Shown here piece by piece: positions 44,983 to 50,632 of a stretch of DNA of 64,000 nucleotides; within the stretch, counting starts at the first letter, position 1; the number at the start of each line of letters is the position of its first letter. Position numbers and translations under genes: made by a program. This DNA comes from an uncultured Eubacteriales bacterium (GTDB taxonomy: Bacteria; Bacillota; Clostridia; Lachnospirales; Lachnospiraceae), in contig OMYS01000001.1 in assembly GCA_900315305.1 (NCBI GenBank), forward strand, positions 1-64,000, written 5' to 3'. The notes below the pieces were generated by a model. It worked only from the letters and a program-made list of their open reading frames with translations, ran no database searches and was not told where the DNA came from.

Positions 44983-46542
44983 TCAGACTACGTTCACCCG
45001 GTCCTCTCTCCGGAAGATGCGGGCGCAGACGAGCGCGCCGAGCGTCAGAAGCAGCAGCTCCCAAGCGGCGGCCATGTACTCATTGTGACTGATGAACGGA
45101 ATGTACGACGCGACGCAGGCATAGACATTATTCGTGATGTGAGCCGTGATATTGGCCTTCATGGAGCCGTAGTGCTCATAGATCAGCGCGAGCACGATGC
45201 CAAAGAGCGCCGTGAACACACCCTGCGTCAGATTTCCATGCGAAATTCCGAAGAGCACGCCGCTTAAGACTGCAGCCCAGTACACGCCGAGGTAATCCCG
45301 GATTCTCCGGTAAATGAGCCCCCGGTAAATAAGCTCCTCGCAGATCGGGCCGATGATACCGACCACAACGATCTGGACAGCGAGGTTCGGCGCCGCAAGC
45401 GCCTCATCGACCGTCTCGTAGGCGCTGTCCTCAAACGGAATGAGAACGCTCGTCAGCATGTTAAGCAGCGTCGCCGTGCCGAGCGTGAAGACAATGACCA
45501 TCGCAATTTCCTTCGCGCCGTATCTGCGCTTTGCCGGAATCCGGATATCCGGAATGTATGCGCGCCTCGTCCGCTCATCCGCTTTAAAAAAGAGATACGC
45601 AACCGGGATGAGCGCCGCATCGGCAACCCCCGTCATAATGACGGTCATGCTGTCCGAATTAAGGAAATTGGCAACCGCCGCCGAGCCTGTCACGCGCCAG
45701 ATGACCTCAAGAATCAGCATAAAGAGAAGGCCGATCCCGTTGAGGCCCACAACCGCGAGCAGAAGCGGGTAGACGGCCCTCCAGACGCGAAACAGGGCGG
45801 AGCCGTCCTGCGGAATGGAATAGCCAGTCTTCCGCAGGTCGCGCATTTTCCTGCTGCTCTCCTCACGGCGCGCCCTGCTCTCCGCGAGCGCCTGTCCGAC
45901 AAGGACATTCCTCAGCTCAAGCGGGGAGTCGACGACGCACTCCGGCCACGCCTCCTCGAGCTCTCTCCGGCTCCCGTAGCCATATGTCACGCCGATCGAG
46001 GCGATCCCGTTCTTTTTTGCCCCCTCGATGTCATAGTACCGGTCACCGATCATCACAACCTCGGAGCGCAGGTCCTGCATGCCGAGGACAGAGAGCGCCG
46101 CTCCGATGACCTCGGACTTCTCCGTGCGCTCGCCGTTCATTTCCGCGCCGACGACCGCCGTGAAATACTGATCGATCCCGAAATACTGAAGAATCCGGCG
46201 GCAGTAGACGGTCGGCTTTGAGGACGCGAGCGCCAGCGTGAAATGGCGCCTGTCGAGCTCCTCAAGAAGCTCACGAATCCCGCCATAGAGGCTGTTCTCA
46301 TAGATACCCGTCACCTCATAGCGCTCGCGGTAGAGCGCGACAGCCCGGTCGGCCTCCGCGTCCGTAAGCCCCTCAAAGCGCATGAATGACTCCTTGAGCG
46401 GAGGTCCGACAAAGCAGGTGAGATCGCTCAGGGCGATGTCACGGTCCCAGCCCTTCTTCATCGCGTACTGCACGCATTTCGTGATCCCCTCCCCGGAGGC
46501 CGTCAGTGTTCCGTCGAGATCAAATAAGACTGTATTCCACAT
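44983..46542 (-). CDS. Fusion: HAD phosphatase plus CPBP intramembrane protease
   Basis: 519 residues in one uninterrupted frame. Residues 1-215 form a phosphoglycolate-phosphatase-like HAD domain: nucleophile DLDGT (Asp8, Asp10), ALASSKP, and MIGDRYYDIEGAKKNGI. Residues 250-510 form a membrane domain of the CPBP (CAAX protease, Abi) family, with the metal motifs EELIYR (402-407), FGISH (431-435) and HITNN (468-472) all intact. The HAD part faces the cytoplasm. A link of about 30 charged residues joins them. I know of no fixed function for such a pair. Starts at MWNTVLFDLDG; 25 nt downstream of argS. Confidence 0.88.
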   Translation of the reverse strand: MWNTVLFDLDGTLTASGEGITKCVQYAMKKGWDRDIALSDLTCFVGPPLKESFMRFEGLTDAEADRAVALYRERYEVTGIYENSLYGGIRELLEELDRRHFTLALASSKPTVYCRRILQYFGIDQYFTAVVGAEMNGERTEKSEVIGAALSVLGMQDLRSEVVMIGDRYYDIEGAKKNGIASIGVTYGYGSRRELEEAWPECVVDSPLELRNVLVGQALAESRARREESSRKMRDLRKTGYSIPQDGSALFRVWRAVYPLLLAVVGLNGIGLLFMLILEVIWRVTGSAAVANFLNSDSMTVIMTGVADAALIPVAYLFFKADERTRRAYIPDIRIPAKRRYGAKEIAMVIVFTLGTATLLNMLTSVLIPFEDSAYETVDEALAAPNLAVQIVVVGIIGPICEELIYRGLIYRRIRDYLGVYWAAVLSGVLFGISHGNLTQGVFTALFGIVLALIYEHYGSMKANITAHITNNVYACVASYIPFISHNEYMAAAWELLLLTLGALVCARIFRREDRVNVV

Positions 46543-46567: not shown

Positions 46568-48337
46568 TCACATATGGTCCGGCGCGGAGAATCCGAGAAG
46601 ATTGATGCTGGTCTCAAGCACTCTCTCCGTGAGGCGGAGCAGAGACAAATAGCTTCTGCGCTTTTCGTCATTTTCCTCCGCGAGGATCTTCGTCTCATGG
46701 TAGGCGCGGTTAAAGTCATTCGAGAGCTGGTAAATGTACGCACAGATCTTGTGCGGTGCGAGCTCCCGTCTCGCATCCCCGATCGCAGCGCCAAAGCCGG
46801 AAATATCGAGCATCAGGGCCTTGCCGGCCTCTCCGTCAGCAGGCAGAAGGGCACAGCCCTCCGCGGCCGCGCGGTCCTCCTCCGACGCCTTCGCGAGGAT
46901 CGACTTGATGCGGACGATCGTATAGAGAATGTACGGACCCGTATTTCCCTCGAAGGACGTGAATTTATCGACATCGAACACGTAGTCCTTGGACGCCTGG
47001 TTCGAGAGGTCGCCGTACTTGACAGCCGCCAGCGAGACGATCTTCGCCGTCTCATCCGCGTCCTCGCTGCGGACGTTCCGGTTGTCCGCGATTTTCTTCT
47101 TCATCTCGGCCTCGATGTCATCGAGAAGGATCTCAAGGCGCATGACGCCGCCCTCTCTCGTCTTGAACGGCTTGCCGTCCTTTCCGTTCATCGTGCCGAA
47201 GCCGATATAGTCGAGCTCGGTGTCCTTATCGACATAGCCGGCGATTCTCGATACGCGGAAGAACTGCGTGTAGTGGAGCGCCTGCCGCTTGTCTGCAAGG
47301 TAAATCATCGCGTCCGGATGGTAATTCCGCATCCGGTCGACAACGGTCGCGAGGTCCGTCGTCGCGTAGAGCGAGGAGCCGTCCGACTTCTGGATGAGGC
47401 ACGGCGGCACCTCCTTCTTGTCCGTCGGCTCCGTGACATCGACGATGAGGGCACCCTGGTCCTCGTGCGCGATGCCGCGCTTCTTCAGGTCATCGATCAT
47501 CCACGGAATGATCGGCTGTGCGTCCGACTCCGCCTTCCAGAGATCAAAATGAACGTCGAGCCGCTCATAGTTGCGCTTCAGGTCCGCAACTGAGATCTTC
47601 ATGATCTGTCTCCAGAGGGCCATGTAGCCCTTCCGGCCGAGCTGCAGCTCCTTCGTCGCCTCGAGCGCCTCAGCCCGGTACGCCTCGTCCTCCTTAGATT
47701 TTGCTGATGCGGTCGGATAGATCTTCTCGAGCTCGGAGATTGTGAACGGTGCCTCCTCCGGAAAGCTCTCCGCATTCTCGTCAAAATACGGAAGGTCCGG
47801 CTGCTCGTGTCTCAGCTCTGTGATGATGAGGCCCATCTGAAGGCCCCAGTCGCCGAGATGGACGTCGCCAAGCACCTCATTTCCTGTCGCCCGGCAGATC
47901 CTCTTGATGCTCTCGCCGATGACCGCACTGCGCAGGTGGCCGACGTGGAGAGGCTTTGCGACATTCGGTCCGCCGTAGTCGACGATGATCTTCTTCGGCT
48001 TCTCCTCCTGCGGAATCGACAGATGCGGATCAGCTGCGACCATTTTCAGATAGTCCGCGAGAAAGTCATTTTTCACACGGAGATTGATAAAGCCAGGCTT
48101 CATGACAGCGGCCGTGAACACGAACTCGCTGTGCTTCTCACAGACTGCCGCGACATCACCCGCGATCAGAAACGGTGCCTTGTGGTAGAGCTTTGCGCCG
48201 GCCATCGCGCCGTTGCACTGATACTCGGCGAGGTCCGGTCTGTCTGACGTGCGGACTCTGCCGAGATCCTTGTCATAGCCTGCCTCGGCAAATGCGGAGC
48301 CCAGCTGCTCCGACATAATTTCAATAGTTGTCTTCAT
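46568..48337 (-). CDS. argS: Arginyl-tRNA synthetase
   Basis: Class Ia synthetase, 589 residues. N-terminal Add-1 domain, HIGH motif as HVGH (NVAKPLHVGHLRSAVIG), Rossmann core and the DALR anticodon-binding domain with family ending SINLLGFSAPDHM. Start at 48337 with GAGGT 7 nt upstream; a longer frame reaches 48466 over the neighbouring gene and is not used. Lies 5 nt downstream of the Card1-like gene, so the two are almost certainly one transcript. Confidence 0.95.
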   Translation of the reverse strand: MKTTIEIMSEQLGSAFAEAGYDKDLGRVRTSDRPDLAEYQCNGAMAGAKLYHKAPFLIAGDVAAVCEKHSEFVFTAAVMKPGFINLRVKNDFLADYLKMVAADPHLSIPQEEKPKKIIVDYGGPNVAKPLHVGHLRSAVIGESIKRICRATGNEVLGDVHLGDWGLQMGLIITELRHEQPDLPYFDENAESFPEEAPFTISELEKIYPTASAKSKEDEAYRAEALEATKELQLGRKGYMALWRQIMKISVADLKRNYERLDVHFDLWKAESDAQPIIPWMIDDLKKRGIAHEDQGALIVDVTEPTDKKEVPPCLIQKSDGSSLYATTDLATVVDRMRNYHPDAMIYLADKRQALHYTQFFRVSRIAGYVDKDTELDYIGFGTMNGKDGKPFKTREGGVMRLEILLDDIEAEMKKKIADNRNVRSEDADETAKIVSLAAVKYGDLSNQASKDYVFDVDKFTSFEGNTGPYILYTIVRIKSILAKASEEDRAAAEGCALLPADGEAGKALMLDISGFGAAIGDARRELAPHKICAYIYQLSNDFNRAYHETKILAEENDEKRRSYLSLLRLTERVLETSINLLGFSAPDHM

Positions 48338-48342
48338 AGCAA

Positions 48343-49512
48343 TTACCTCAGTTCTAGTTGATCGGAGAGCTCCGCGAGCGGATACGTCTCCATATTCAGC
48401 ATGTTTGCTGCGCGCGCGGCGCCCTCCGGTATCTTTCCGCCCGAGAAGGCCGCAATCCGGCGGCACGGATCCGGGAAGATGTCCCGCATGTCCTCATACG
48501 CCGAGAAGATGTCGGCGTCGTCCGCGCCCCCGCCGAAGCAGGAGACGATGACCGGAAGGCAGCCGGCGATCCCCGCCGCGTATCTCCCGTCCATCAGCAT
48601 CAGATCATGATAGGCGGCCGTGCGGCGCGCATTTCTAATGTATGCCATCGCAAGGAAGGCGACATAGGTGCCGATCTTCCGGATATCGAGAAGCAGACGG
48701 ATGACGGACGGCGAGGCAAATGTCACGCTCACGACCCCGTTTTTCTTCGATAGCGCCGTGATCAAGCCGCTCTGGTTCAGGTCCTCGAGCGCGTCGCCCG
48801 GGATGGCGAATTCCTTCTCATCAAACACATAGGAGATCTTTTCCGACCGCAGCGCAGTCTCTCCGTTTCTGCCCGATTCAGAGGCAAACATGAGCCGCAT
48901 CCGGTCGGATACCTCGGCCCAGAAATCAGGTCTCCCTCCGAAAAATGAATACAGCGTCCGGATCGCCCGGACGGTCGGCCGCGTCAGGTCCTTCCGGCTC
49001 CAGACCCTTCTTTCCTCCTCCGGCGGAACCTGAAAATCCGTCCCGAAGTTCAGGAACCGGATTTCCGAATATGTCAGAGACGGAAATGGCAGGTGCCGGA
49101 GGCGGTCCGCATTTTTCTGATGCAGGAAGCGCCTCTTTTCGATGCTGAAATCCATGAGCGGAATGCCTGCGAACAGCTTGTTGCTCATCACCGCGCTGAG
49201 CGCAAACGCCTCCGTGTGATCCGCGTCCGTGATGTCGATCACGGGCTTAAGGACGATGTGTCGGTCCAGCAGCGTCATGAGCGTCTTTTCCATGGCCGGC
49301 TCATCGCCGGGCGTCAGTTCGACCGCCTCCGCGACGGCCGTCACGAGGTTCCGCCTGCTGAAGAACCGGTTGTACTGCATTCTCTGCTTGTCCGTAAGAA
49401 AATGTCCGTAGCCGACAAAGATCAGAAGCTCCGGGGCCATGGCGATGCCTCCGATGACATTGCTGACCGGAGAGCTGCCTATGAATTTAATCAGTACCGA
49501 TGAAACCGGCAT
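48343..49512 (-). CDS. Card1-like (DUF1887) protein: CARF-type sensor with degenerate nuclease
   Basis: 389 residues. Residues 1-135 resemble the CARF domain of DUF1887 proteins: hydrophobic start VLIKFIGSSPVSNVIGGIAM, PELLIFVGYG, then VIDITDADHT where relatives have FDITGG. A helical/winged region follows (about 170-270). The C-terminus aligns with the PD-(D/E)xK nuclease: GTYVAFLAMAY, YHD (301-303) and VIVSCFGGG (322-329). Active members have an acidic residue before the Asp and SCK/ECK; here Phe326 replaces the Lys and Ala285 the helical Glu, so cleavage is unlikely. There is no CRISPR array or cas gene in the window. Start ATG 49512 follows GAGGAGG. Assigned by pattern, not search. Confidence 0.6.
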   Translation of the reverse strand: MPVSSVLIKFIGSSPVSNVIGGIAMAPELLIFVGYGHFLTDKQRMQYNRFFSRRNLVTAVAEAVELTPGDEPAMEKTLMTLLDRHIVLKPVIDITDADHTEAFALSAVMSNKLFAGIPLMDFSIEKRRFLHQKNADRLRHLPFPSLTYSEIRFLNFGTDFQVPPEEERRVWSRKDLTRPTVRAIRTLYSFFGGRPDFWAEVSDRMRLMFASESGRNGETALRSEKISYVFDEKEFAIPGDALEDLNQSGLITALSKKNGVVSVTFASPSVIRLLLDIRKIGTYVAFLAMAYIRNARRTAAYHDLMLMDGRYAAGIAGCLPVIVSCFGGGADDADIFSAYEDMRDIFPDPCRRIAAFSGGKIPEGAARAANMLNMETYPLAELSDQLELR

Positions 49513-49553
49513 GCTGCCTCCTCTCACTTGTGTGCTTCATTCTGAATGTTCGT

Positions 49554-49583
49554 GACCGGTATATATCCGGAAGCTCATCTCGT
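49554..49583 (-). repeat. metA 3'-end repeat, copy 3
   Basis: 24 of 30 bases equal the metA end at 49686-49715. In frame on the minus strand it reads DELPDIYRS, against DELPDTYRS at the end of MetA. Confidence 0.65.
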
Positions 49584-49624
49584 CCCTCGCAAGCGTCCAT
49601 CCGGATGTTTGCGGCTATTCATGG

Positions 49625-49653
49625 TCTGTTCGTAGCCGGAATTTCATCCTCCC
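49625..49653 (-). repeat. metA 3'-end repeat, copy 2 (diverged)
   Basis: The minus strand reads GRLWEDEIPATNRP and a stop, a weaker likeness of the MetA tail PWGDELPDTYRS. It lies between metA and copy 3. Confidence 0.45.
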
Positions 49654-49681: not shown

Positions 49682-50632
49682 TTATGACCGGTATGTGTCC
49701 GGGAGCTCGTCTCCCCACGGCGTTCCGTCGAGATTAAAGGGCGTCGACTGGTAGACATAGTAGTTCAGCCAGTTCGTGTAGAGATTGTTCGCGACCGATC
49801 TCCAGGTGAGAATCGGCCGTTTTCCCGGGTCATCATCCGGGAAATAGTGCTTCGGGAGCGCCGTGTCGAGTCCTTTGCGCCTGTCACGCTCATACTCGCG
49901 CCGAAGCTGCATGCGGTCGTATTCCGGGTGACCCATCACAAAAATCTTTCTTCCGTTCTCCGCCATGCACAGCGCGACGCCCGCCTCGTCCGACTGGGCG
50001 AGAATCGTGATGTCGTCGCAGCGGATGATATCGCGCGCCGCGACCTCCGTGTAGCGCGAGTGCGGCATATAGAAGACATCGTCAAAGCCGCGGAGAAGCG
50101 GGACCTTCCGGTTGTAGACCTTGTGGTAGAAAATGCCGAAGAGCTTCTCCTTCAGCAGATGCTTCTCGAAGCCATAGTAATGGTACATCGCCGCCTGTGC
50201 TCCCCAGCAGAGGAACAGCGTCGACGTCACATGCGTGTTGCACCACGAGAAGACGCCCTCGAGCTCGTTCCAGTAGTCGACCTGCTCAAAGGGGAGCAGC
50301 TCGACGGGCGCGCCGGTGACGATCATGCCGTCAAAATAGCGGCCGCGAATGTCATCAAACGGCTCATAGAACGTGTCGAGATGGCTCTTTGACGTGTGCT
50401 TCGACTTGTGCGTCGACATGCGCATGAAGGTCACATCGATCTGCAGCGGCGTGTTGGACAGCTCGCGCAGGATCTGCAGCTCCGTGTCCTCCTTGAGCGG
50501 CATCAGATTGAGAATGCAGATCTGGATCGGCCGGATGTCCTGGTGCACGGCCCGGCTCTCGTCCATGACAAAGATATTCTCTCTCTCGAGAATTTCCTTG
50601 ACCGGAATATTGTCTGGTATCTTTACAGGCAT
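49682..50632 (-). CDS. metA: Homoserine O-acyltransferase (MetA family, acetyl-type by residue 111)
   Basis: Activates homoserine for methionine synthesis; 316 residues, class I glutamine-amidotransferase-like fold. Nucleophile Cys142 is in LFLCWGAQAA, with HPE (GHPEYD) supplying the His/Glu. Residue 111 is Glu (VTGAPVELLPFE); in this family Glu111 marks acetyl-CoA users such as the Bacillus cereus enzyme, and Gly marks succinyl-CoA users such as E. coli. So O-acetylhomoserine is the expected product. AGGAG is 6 nt before the ATG. 12 nt downstream of ligA. Two partial copies of its 3' end follow it. Confidence 0.93.
   Translation of the reverse strand: MPVKIPDNIPVKEILERENIFVMDESRAVHQDIRPIQICILNLMPLKEDTELQILRELSNTPLQIDVTFMRMSTHKSKHTSKSHLDTFYEPFDDIRGRYFDGMIVTGAPVELLPFEQVDYWNELEGVFSWCNTHVTSTLFLCWGAQAAMYHYYGFEKHLLKEKLFGIFYHKVYNRKVPLLRGFDDVFYMPHSRYTEVAARDIIRCDDITILAQSDEAGVALCMAENGRKIFVMGHPEYDRMQLRREYERDRRKGLDTALPKHYFPDDDPGKRPILTWRSVANNLYTNWLNYYVYQSTPFNLDGTPWGDELPDTYRS

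Follow-up and report, generated by a model that had tools for sequence, protein, structure and literature searches.

Orphan CARF-domain proteins are known outside CRISPR systems, and to our knowledge their function is unexplained. The best structural match to the protein described here is VC1899 of Vibrio cholerae (PDB 1XMX, DUF1887/PF09002), which likewise combines a CARF domain with a PD-(D/E)xK domain. VC1899 is also an orphan, unlinked to type III CRISPR; it lacks the residues by which Can2 holds cA4 (S19, T42, K99 and Y118), its cA4 pocket is not kept and cA4 does not activate it (PMC7969007). The nuclease residues that have been mutated in this family are E291/D293 in VC1899, E276/D278 in SthCan2 and E302/K304 in TsuCan2 (PMC7969007). 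The N-terminal half of Can1 consists of a CARF domain and a nuclease-like domain without active-site residues (PMC7969007).

Here we describe an orphan CARF-PD-(D/E)xK protein that lacks the catalytic residues and is fixed in one clade. VC1899 retains E291/D293 as well as the lysine and is a weak RNase, whereas the orthologous group studied here lacks both the Asp and the Lys. The type III CRISPR effectors Card1, Can2 and Cdn1 share its fold over the full length, but the group has neither their catalytic residues nor a conserved phosphate-holding lysine, and most carriers have no type III locus. In Can1 the dead half is joined to a second, active half; the protein described here is encoded by a separate gene, in a genome without an intact PF09002 partner. 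VC1899 and the dead half of Can1 are partial precedents. Since the cutting residues are lost in all copies and most of the genomes lack such a CRISPR system, the protein has probably been repurposed for sensing or binding.

The window (the whole stretch of 64,000 nucleotides that was analysed) belongs to a genome that is 98.8% complete (G000). The open reading frame runs from an ATG at 49512 to a TAA stop at 48345-48343 (Table 1). An alternative GTG start five codons upstream would give 394 amino acids; most orthologues have a start equivalent to the ATG. The genes ligA, metA, the ORF, argS, a HAD/CAAX protein gene and rpsB follow one another on one strand. The Shine-Dalgarno-like site of argS within the last codons of the ORF suggests that the two genes may be translationally coupled, and a similar GAGG-type site is present in about half of the carriers. 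Two further features of this stretch were seen. One is an imperfect direct repeat (86%; 49553-49581 and 49685-49713), by which part of the metA 3′ end recurs in the 169-bp spacer that separates this gene from the CARF gene; a third, weaker copy lies at 49622-49650. Downstream of argS, a single ORF (44983-46542 (-)) fuses a HAD-like phosphatase to a CAAX-protease (Rce1-like) domain (Pfam); in several relatives, each of these parts matches a segment of its own.

Table 1. Features of the CARF gene and its surroundings, by position in the window.
Feature	Position	Strand	Basis
CDS, CARF-wHTH-pseudonuclease protein, 389 aa	48343..49512	-	ORF, model, Foldseek, orthologues
CARF (Rossmann-like) sensor domain, residues 1-132	49117..49512	-	model and orthologue conservation
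Linker and helical/winged-helix-like middle region, residues 133-275	48688..49116	-	model secondary structure; winged helix is a putative reading
PD-(D/E)xK fold without catalytic residues, residues 276-389	48346..48687	-	model, Foldseek, alignment columns
G309-R310-Y311 replacing catalytic E-x-D (E291/D293 of VC1899, E276/D278 of SthCan2)	48580..48588	-	hhalign and column states
Phe326 replacing catalytic lysine of (E/S)xK	48535..48537	-	hhalign and column states
Ala288 replacing the helical Glu	48649..48651	-	column states
GAGG, Shine-Dalgarno-like site of argS, within the last codons of the ORF	48346..48349	-
argS (arginyl-tRNA synthetase), 5 bp downstream of the ORF	46568..48337	-	Pfam
metA/HTS (homoserine O-succinyltransferase), 169 bp upstream of the ORF	49682..50632	-	Pfam

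Searches of Pfam, NCBIfam and PDB sequences with the window protein returned nothing useful, and neither it nor five other orthologues reach the gathering cut-off of PF09002 (Card1_endonuc); the protein diverges so fast that it is invisible to the family databases searched here. PADLOC CARF_PDDEXK models match some orthologues. An AlphaFold2 model, for which the 15 orthologues served as the input alignment, has a pLDDT of 89.4 and a pTM of 0.85, and shows an N-terminal CARF domain and a C-terminal PD-(D/E)xK fold in one chain. In a Foldseek comparison with the PDB, VC1899, Can2, Cdn1, Card1 and Can1 fill ranks 1-13 (probability 1.00, E-values from 1.6e-13 to 1e-4), with alignments that cover about the whole protein. 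Most of these matches have TM-scores of approximately 0.55-0.64 at an rmsd of 6-8 Å, values which suggest that the domains are conserved and that their relative orientation in the model differs. Full-length homology to PF09002 proteins is also found at the profile level: the orthologues align with a group of intact PF09002 paralogues from the same genus (L016-L019 and L021; both members that were scanned score over the PF09002 cut-off) across 351 columns, at E = 1.3e-18 (hhalign). The model, the Foldseek ranks and the paralogue profile match together make homology to the DUF1887/Card1 family well supported. A Card1/DUF1887-like CARF-nuclease fold had been proposed in an earlier, sequence-only reading, and the structural comparison, with both Card1 and Can2 among the 13 best PDB matches, confirms that proposal.

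The same reading had placed Phe326 at the lysine of the SCK motif and considered the helical Glu lost. Both statements hold, and the orthologues extend them. In the profile alignment, the intact paralogues have NEIDVMAVRGIQPVFISCK opposite DGRYAAGIAGCLPVIVSCF of the window protein, so that paralogue residues E301, D303, S316 and K318 correspond to G309, Y311, S324 and F326. When helix 277-290 is read against VLELQVYR, the helical Glu falls on Ala288. The catalytic Asp (position 311) is absent in 15/15 orthologues, the column holding Y (12), F, C or Q, and the catalytic Lys (position 326) is likewise absent in all 15, with F, V, Y, L, P or a gap in its place; the Glu at 288 is gone in all orthologues except the most divergent one (14/15; kept in L015). 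The catalytic core (residues 308-389) contains no invariant position among 82, compared with 27 of 307 elsewhere (Fisher p = 0.002). Residues 305-389 contain no conserved set of Asp, Glu and Lys, and a shift of intact catalytic residues to other positions was rejected on this basis.

A protein of this kind could still be an enzyme, if a new active site had arisen in the PD-(D/E)xK fold or if the CARF domain were itself ring-nuclease-like, as some CARF domains are (PMC7969007). The nearly invariant D303 and the invariant R293 of the nuclease part and the conserved polar residues of the CARF domain could be taken in this sense. However, D303 and R293 have counterparts (D279 and R269) in the intact paralogues and therefore look structural, and no Lys or Glu is conserved in residues 305-389. 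We consider continued enzymatic activity quite improbable.

The 15 orthologues all belong to a single genus of uncultured rumen Lachnospiraceae. They are monophyletic (SH-aLRT 99) and occupy one locus, and the observation thus exceeds chance. On the argS tree, the gene is present in 14/16 genomes of one clade (SH-aLRT 98), a distribution that takes three changes to explain, such as a single gain with two losses. This pattern fits vertical inheritance of a dispensable yet selected gene. Spread beyond the genus was rejected, since in a family-wide sample of 299 genomes (298 genera) all CARF/PF09002-type matches were weak, and the four matches that were read all retain the motif NE-[ILV]-D...SCK. 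A viral, phage or plasmid origin was also rejected, as no relatives were found there. The literature searched, which did not include the 2020 CARF classification paper, contained no account of this orthologous group.

The evolutionary pattern bears on whether the gene is simply decaying. It could be a degenerating remnant, that is, an orphan DUF1887 nuclease ‘cast adrift’ and on the way to losing its function, which the operon and the coupling to argS keep in place. VC1899 has been read in this way (PMC7969007), and it also favours this reading that the final codons of the ORF carry the Shine-Dalgarno-like site of argS. The protein moreover evolves fast, with 32-40% identity between orthologues where argS has 66-70%, and the gene is missing from two genomes of the clade (G019 and G008) that keep metA and argS; its role is therefore dispensable. 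However, comparison with a 90%-identical orthologue gives a dN/dS of 0.12, similar to that of the HAD/CAAX neighbour (0.10) and higher than those of argS and metA (0.03), with each domain staying below 0.17 (0.16 at most). Furthermore, all 15 copies are open, with no stop or frameshift and with their length kept, although most are only 25-40% identical to the window protein; these open frames and the dN/dS led us to reject a pseudogene. The CARF domain is the most conserved part, with a mean pairwise identity of 50% and 14 of the 27 invariant positions, among them N18, E28, G36, R44, N48, R54, D93 and D98. We therefore regard a remnant as unlikely, if still worth reckoning with. What sets the locus apart is a whole orthologous group in which the catalytic loss is fixed and the sensor half is under purifying selection at one locus.

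The earlier claim that the protein is independent of CRISPR, with no cas gene in the window, stands for the genome as a whole: searches of G000 found no Cas1, no Csm1 over cut-off and no Cas10 palm domain. Among the carriers, 13 of 15 have no Cas10 over cut-off, and Csm1/Cas10 is present in the other two (G027 and G012). A ligand from CBASS synthases was rejected as well, with no SMODS synthase in G000 or in any carrier. As to the ligand pocket, the position of the phosphate-holding Lys99 of Can2, after strand 4, is occupied by H, E, S, A, P or V in the orthologues, and because this lysine is not conserved, the window protein is unlikely to sense cA4. CARF families without this positive residue have been proposed to perhaps bind distinct ligands (PMC4012209). 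Conservation is 0.58 in the pocket-side loops and 0.48 in the rest of the CARF domain, a difference that is not significant (p = 0.08). Nucleotide binding is plausible, given the CARF fold.

These data also address the idea that the protein serves type III CRISPR from outside the locus, as a non-catalytic effector or by acting as a decoy or sponge for cyclic oligoadenylates. Its fold does match cA4-bound Can2, Card1 and Cdn1, and two carriers possess Csm1/Cas10. But the remaining carriers, G000 included, have no Cas10 over cut-off, the Lys99 position is variable, and in the complete genome G027 the gene lies approximately 1.1 Mb from csm1. The chance that this idea is correct seems to us very small.

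The gene has a fixed address. The tight linkage to argS and the upstream metA that had been noted from the sequence are real: metA adjoins the gene in 15/15 carriers, and argS is directly downstream in 12/13 carriers that have both genes on one contig, at distances of 3-52 bp where measured. These associations could suggest a specific regulator of arginyl-tRNA synthetase or of methionine synthesis, and the sequence-only reading had placed the gene in a translation/amino-acid operon. A functional tie to translation or amino-acid metabolism is not supported. In G040 degV intervenes between the gene and argS, in G019 metA adjoins argS with nothing between, and G008 too lacks the gene and keeps both metA and argS. 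Moreover, ligA, rpsB and rluB are kept around the locus equally well, and no T-box or other riboswitch is present at it. The metA and argS neighbours thus represent the ancestral order of a chromosomal stretch, and because degV can intervene and argS remains in genomes without the gene, the linkage is positional and does not show function. The data do not support a role specific to arginine charging or methionine synthesis, and we think one very unlikely. The degV gene was seen in the metA-argS interval twice, beside the CARF gene in G040 and without it in G008 (L069:2698-3594 (-) and L073:3284-4165 (-)).

We give about an even chance to the reading that this is an orphan protein of the VC1899/Can2/Card1 fold which has lost its catalytic residues and acts by ligand-gated binding instead of cutting. 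By homology with Can2, the protein would form a homodimer in which the CARF domains may take up a small, probably nucleotide-like ligand that is not cA4. This would shift the winged-helix-like and pseudonuclease regions, so that they could attach to nucleic acid or to a protein partner and leave it uncut. The protein would in this case resemble the CARF-wHTH regulator Csa3 in acting as a ligand-gated binder or regulator, and its gene would probably be expressed from a metA-argS transcript and be coupled to argS translation. The likeness to Csa3 lies in a CARF sensor with a winged-helix output. In the window protein, the winged helix is a reading of the model, in which residues 239-265 form a helix and a beta-hairpin (the Foldseek match to Csa3 is weak, E 2e-3), and Csa3 differs in having no pseudonuclease domain and in being CRISPR-linked. 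Against a strictly conserved DNA target stands the lower conservation of the middle region (mean identity 37%) relative to the CARF domain. More tentatively, and with a probability that we put well below even, the protein may be a CARF sensor that has left antiviral defence, been stripped of its nuclease and become fixed in the core genome of a bacterial lineage as a non-catalytic, ligand-gated regulator, sensing a cellular nucleotide and not a cyclic oligoadenylate. As sensing is here separated from cutting, the group offers a clean system for finding what a CARF domain senses without Cas10.

The intact paralogues of the genus are full-length homologues of similar length that keep NEID...SCK and lie elsewhere in the genome. 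A role as dominant-negative partner of such a paralogue was rejected, since only one of the 15 carriers (G014) has both genes and G000 has no PF09002 match over cut-off and no intact DUF1887. The model of an intact paralogue was poor (pLDDT 68) and was left out of the analysis. At the two loci that were read, no CRISPR genes were seen beside the intact copies; judging from the ORFs, they are surrounded by cobalamin/aspartokinase or malic-enzyme/alcohol-dehydrogenase genes (L040:4506-5729 (-) or L038:5345-6505 (+)). A third relative in the genus is a protein of 626 amino acids from G030 (L047:1291-3171 (-)), which combines a CARF-like motif (VLDITGIDEAEAF) with an intact NEID...SCK; it adjoins a ccdA/TlpA-like sequence, and a related match is found in G039 (L048).
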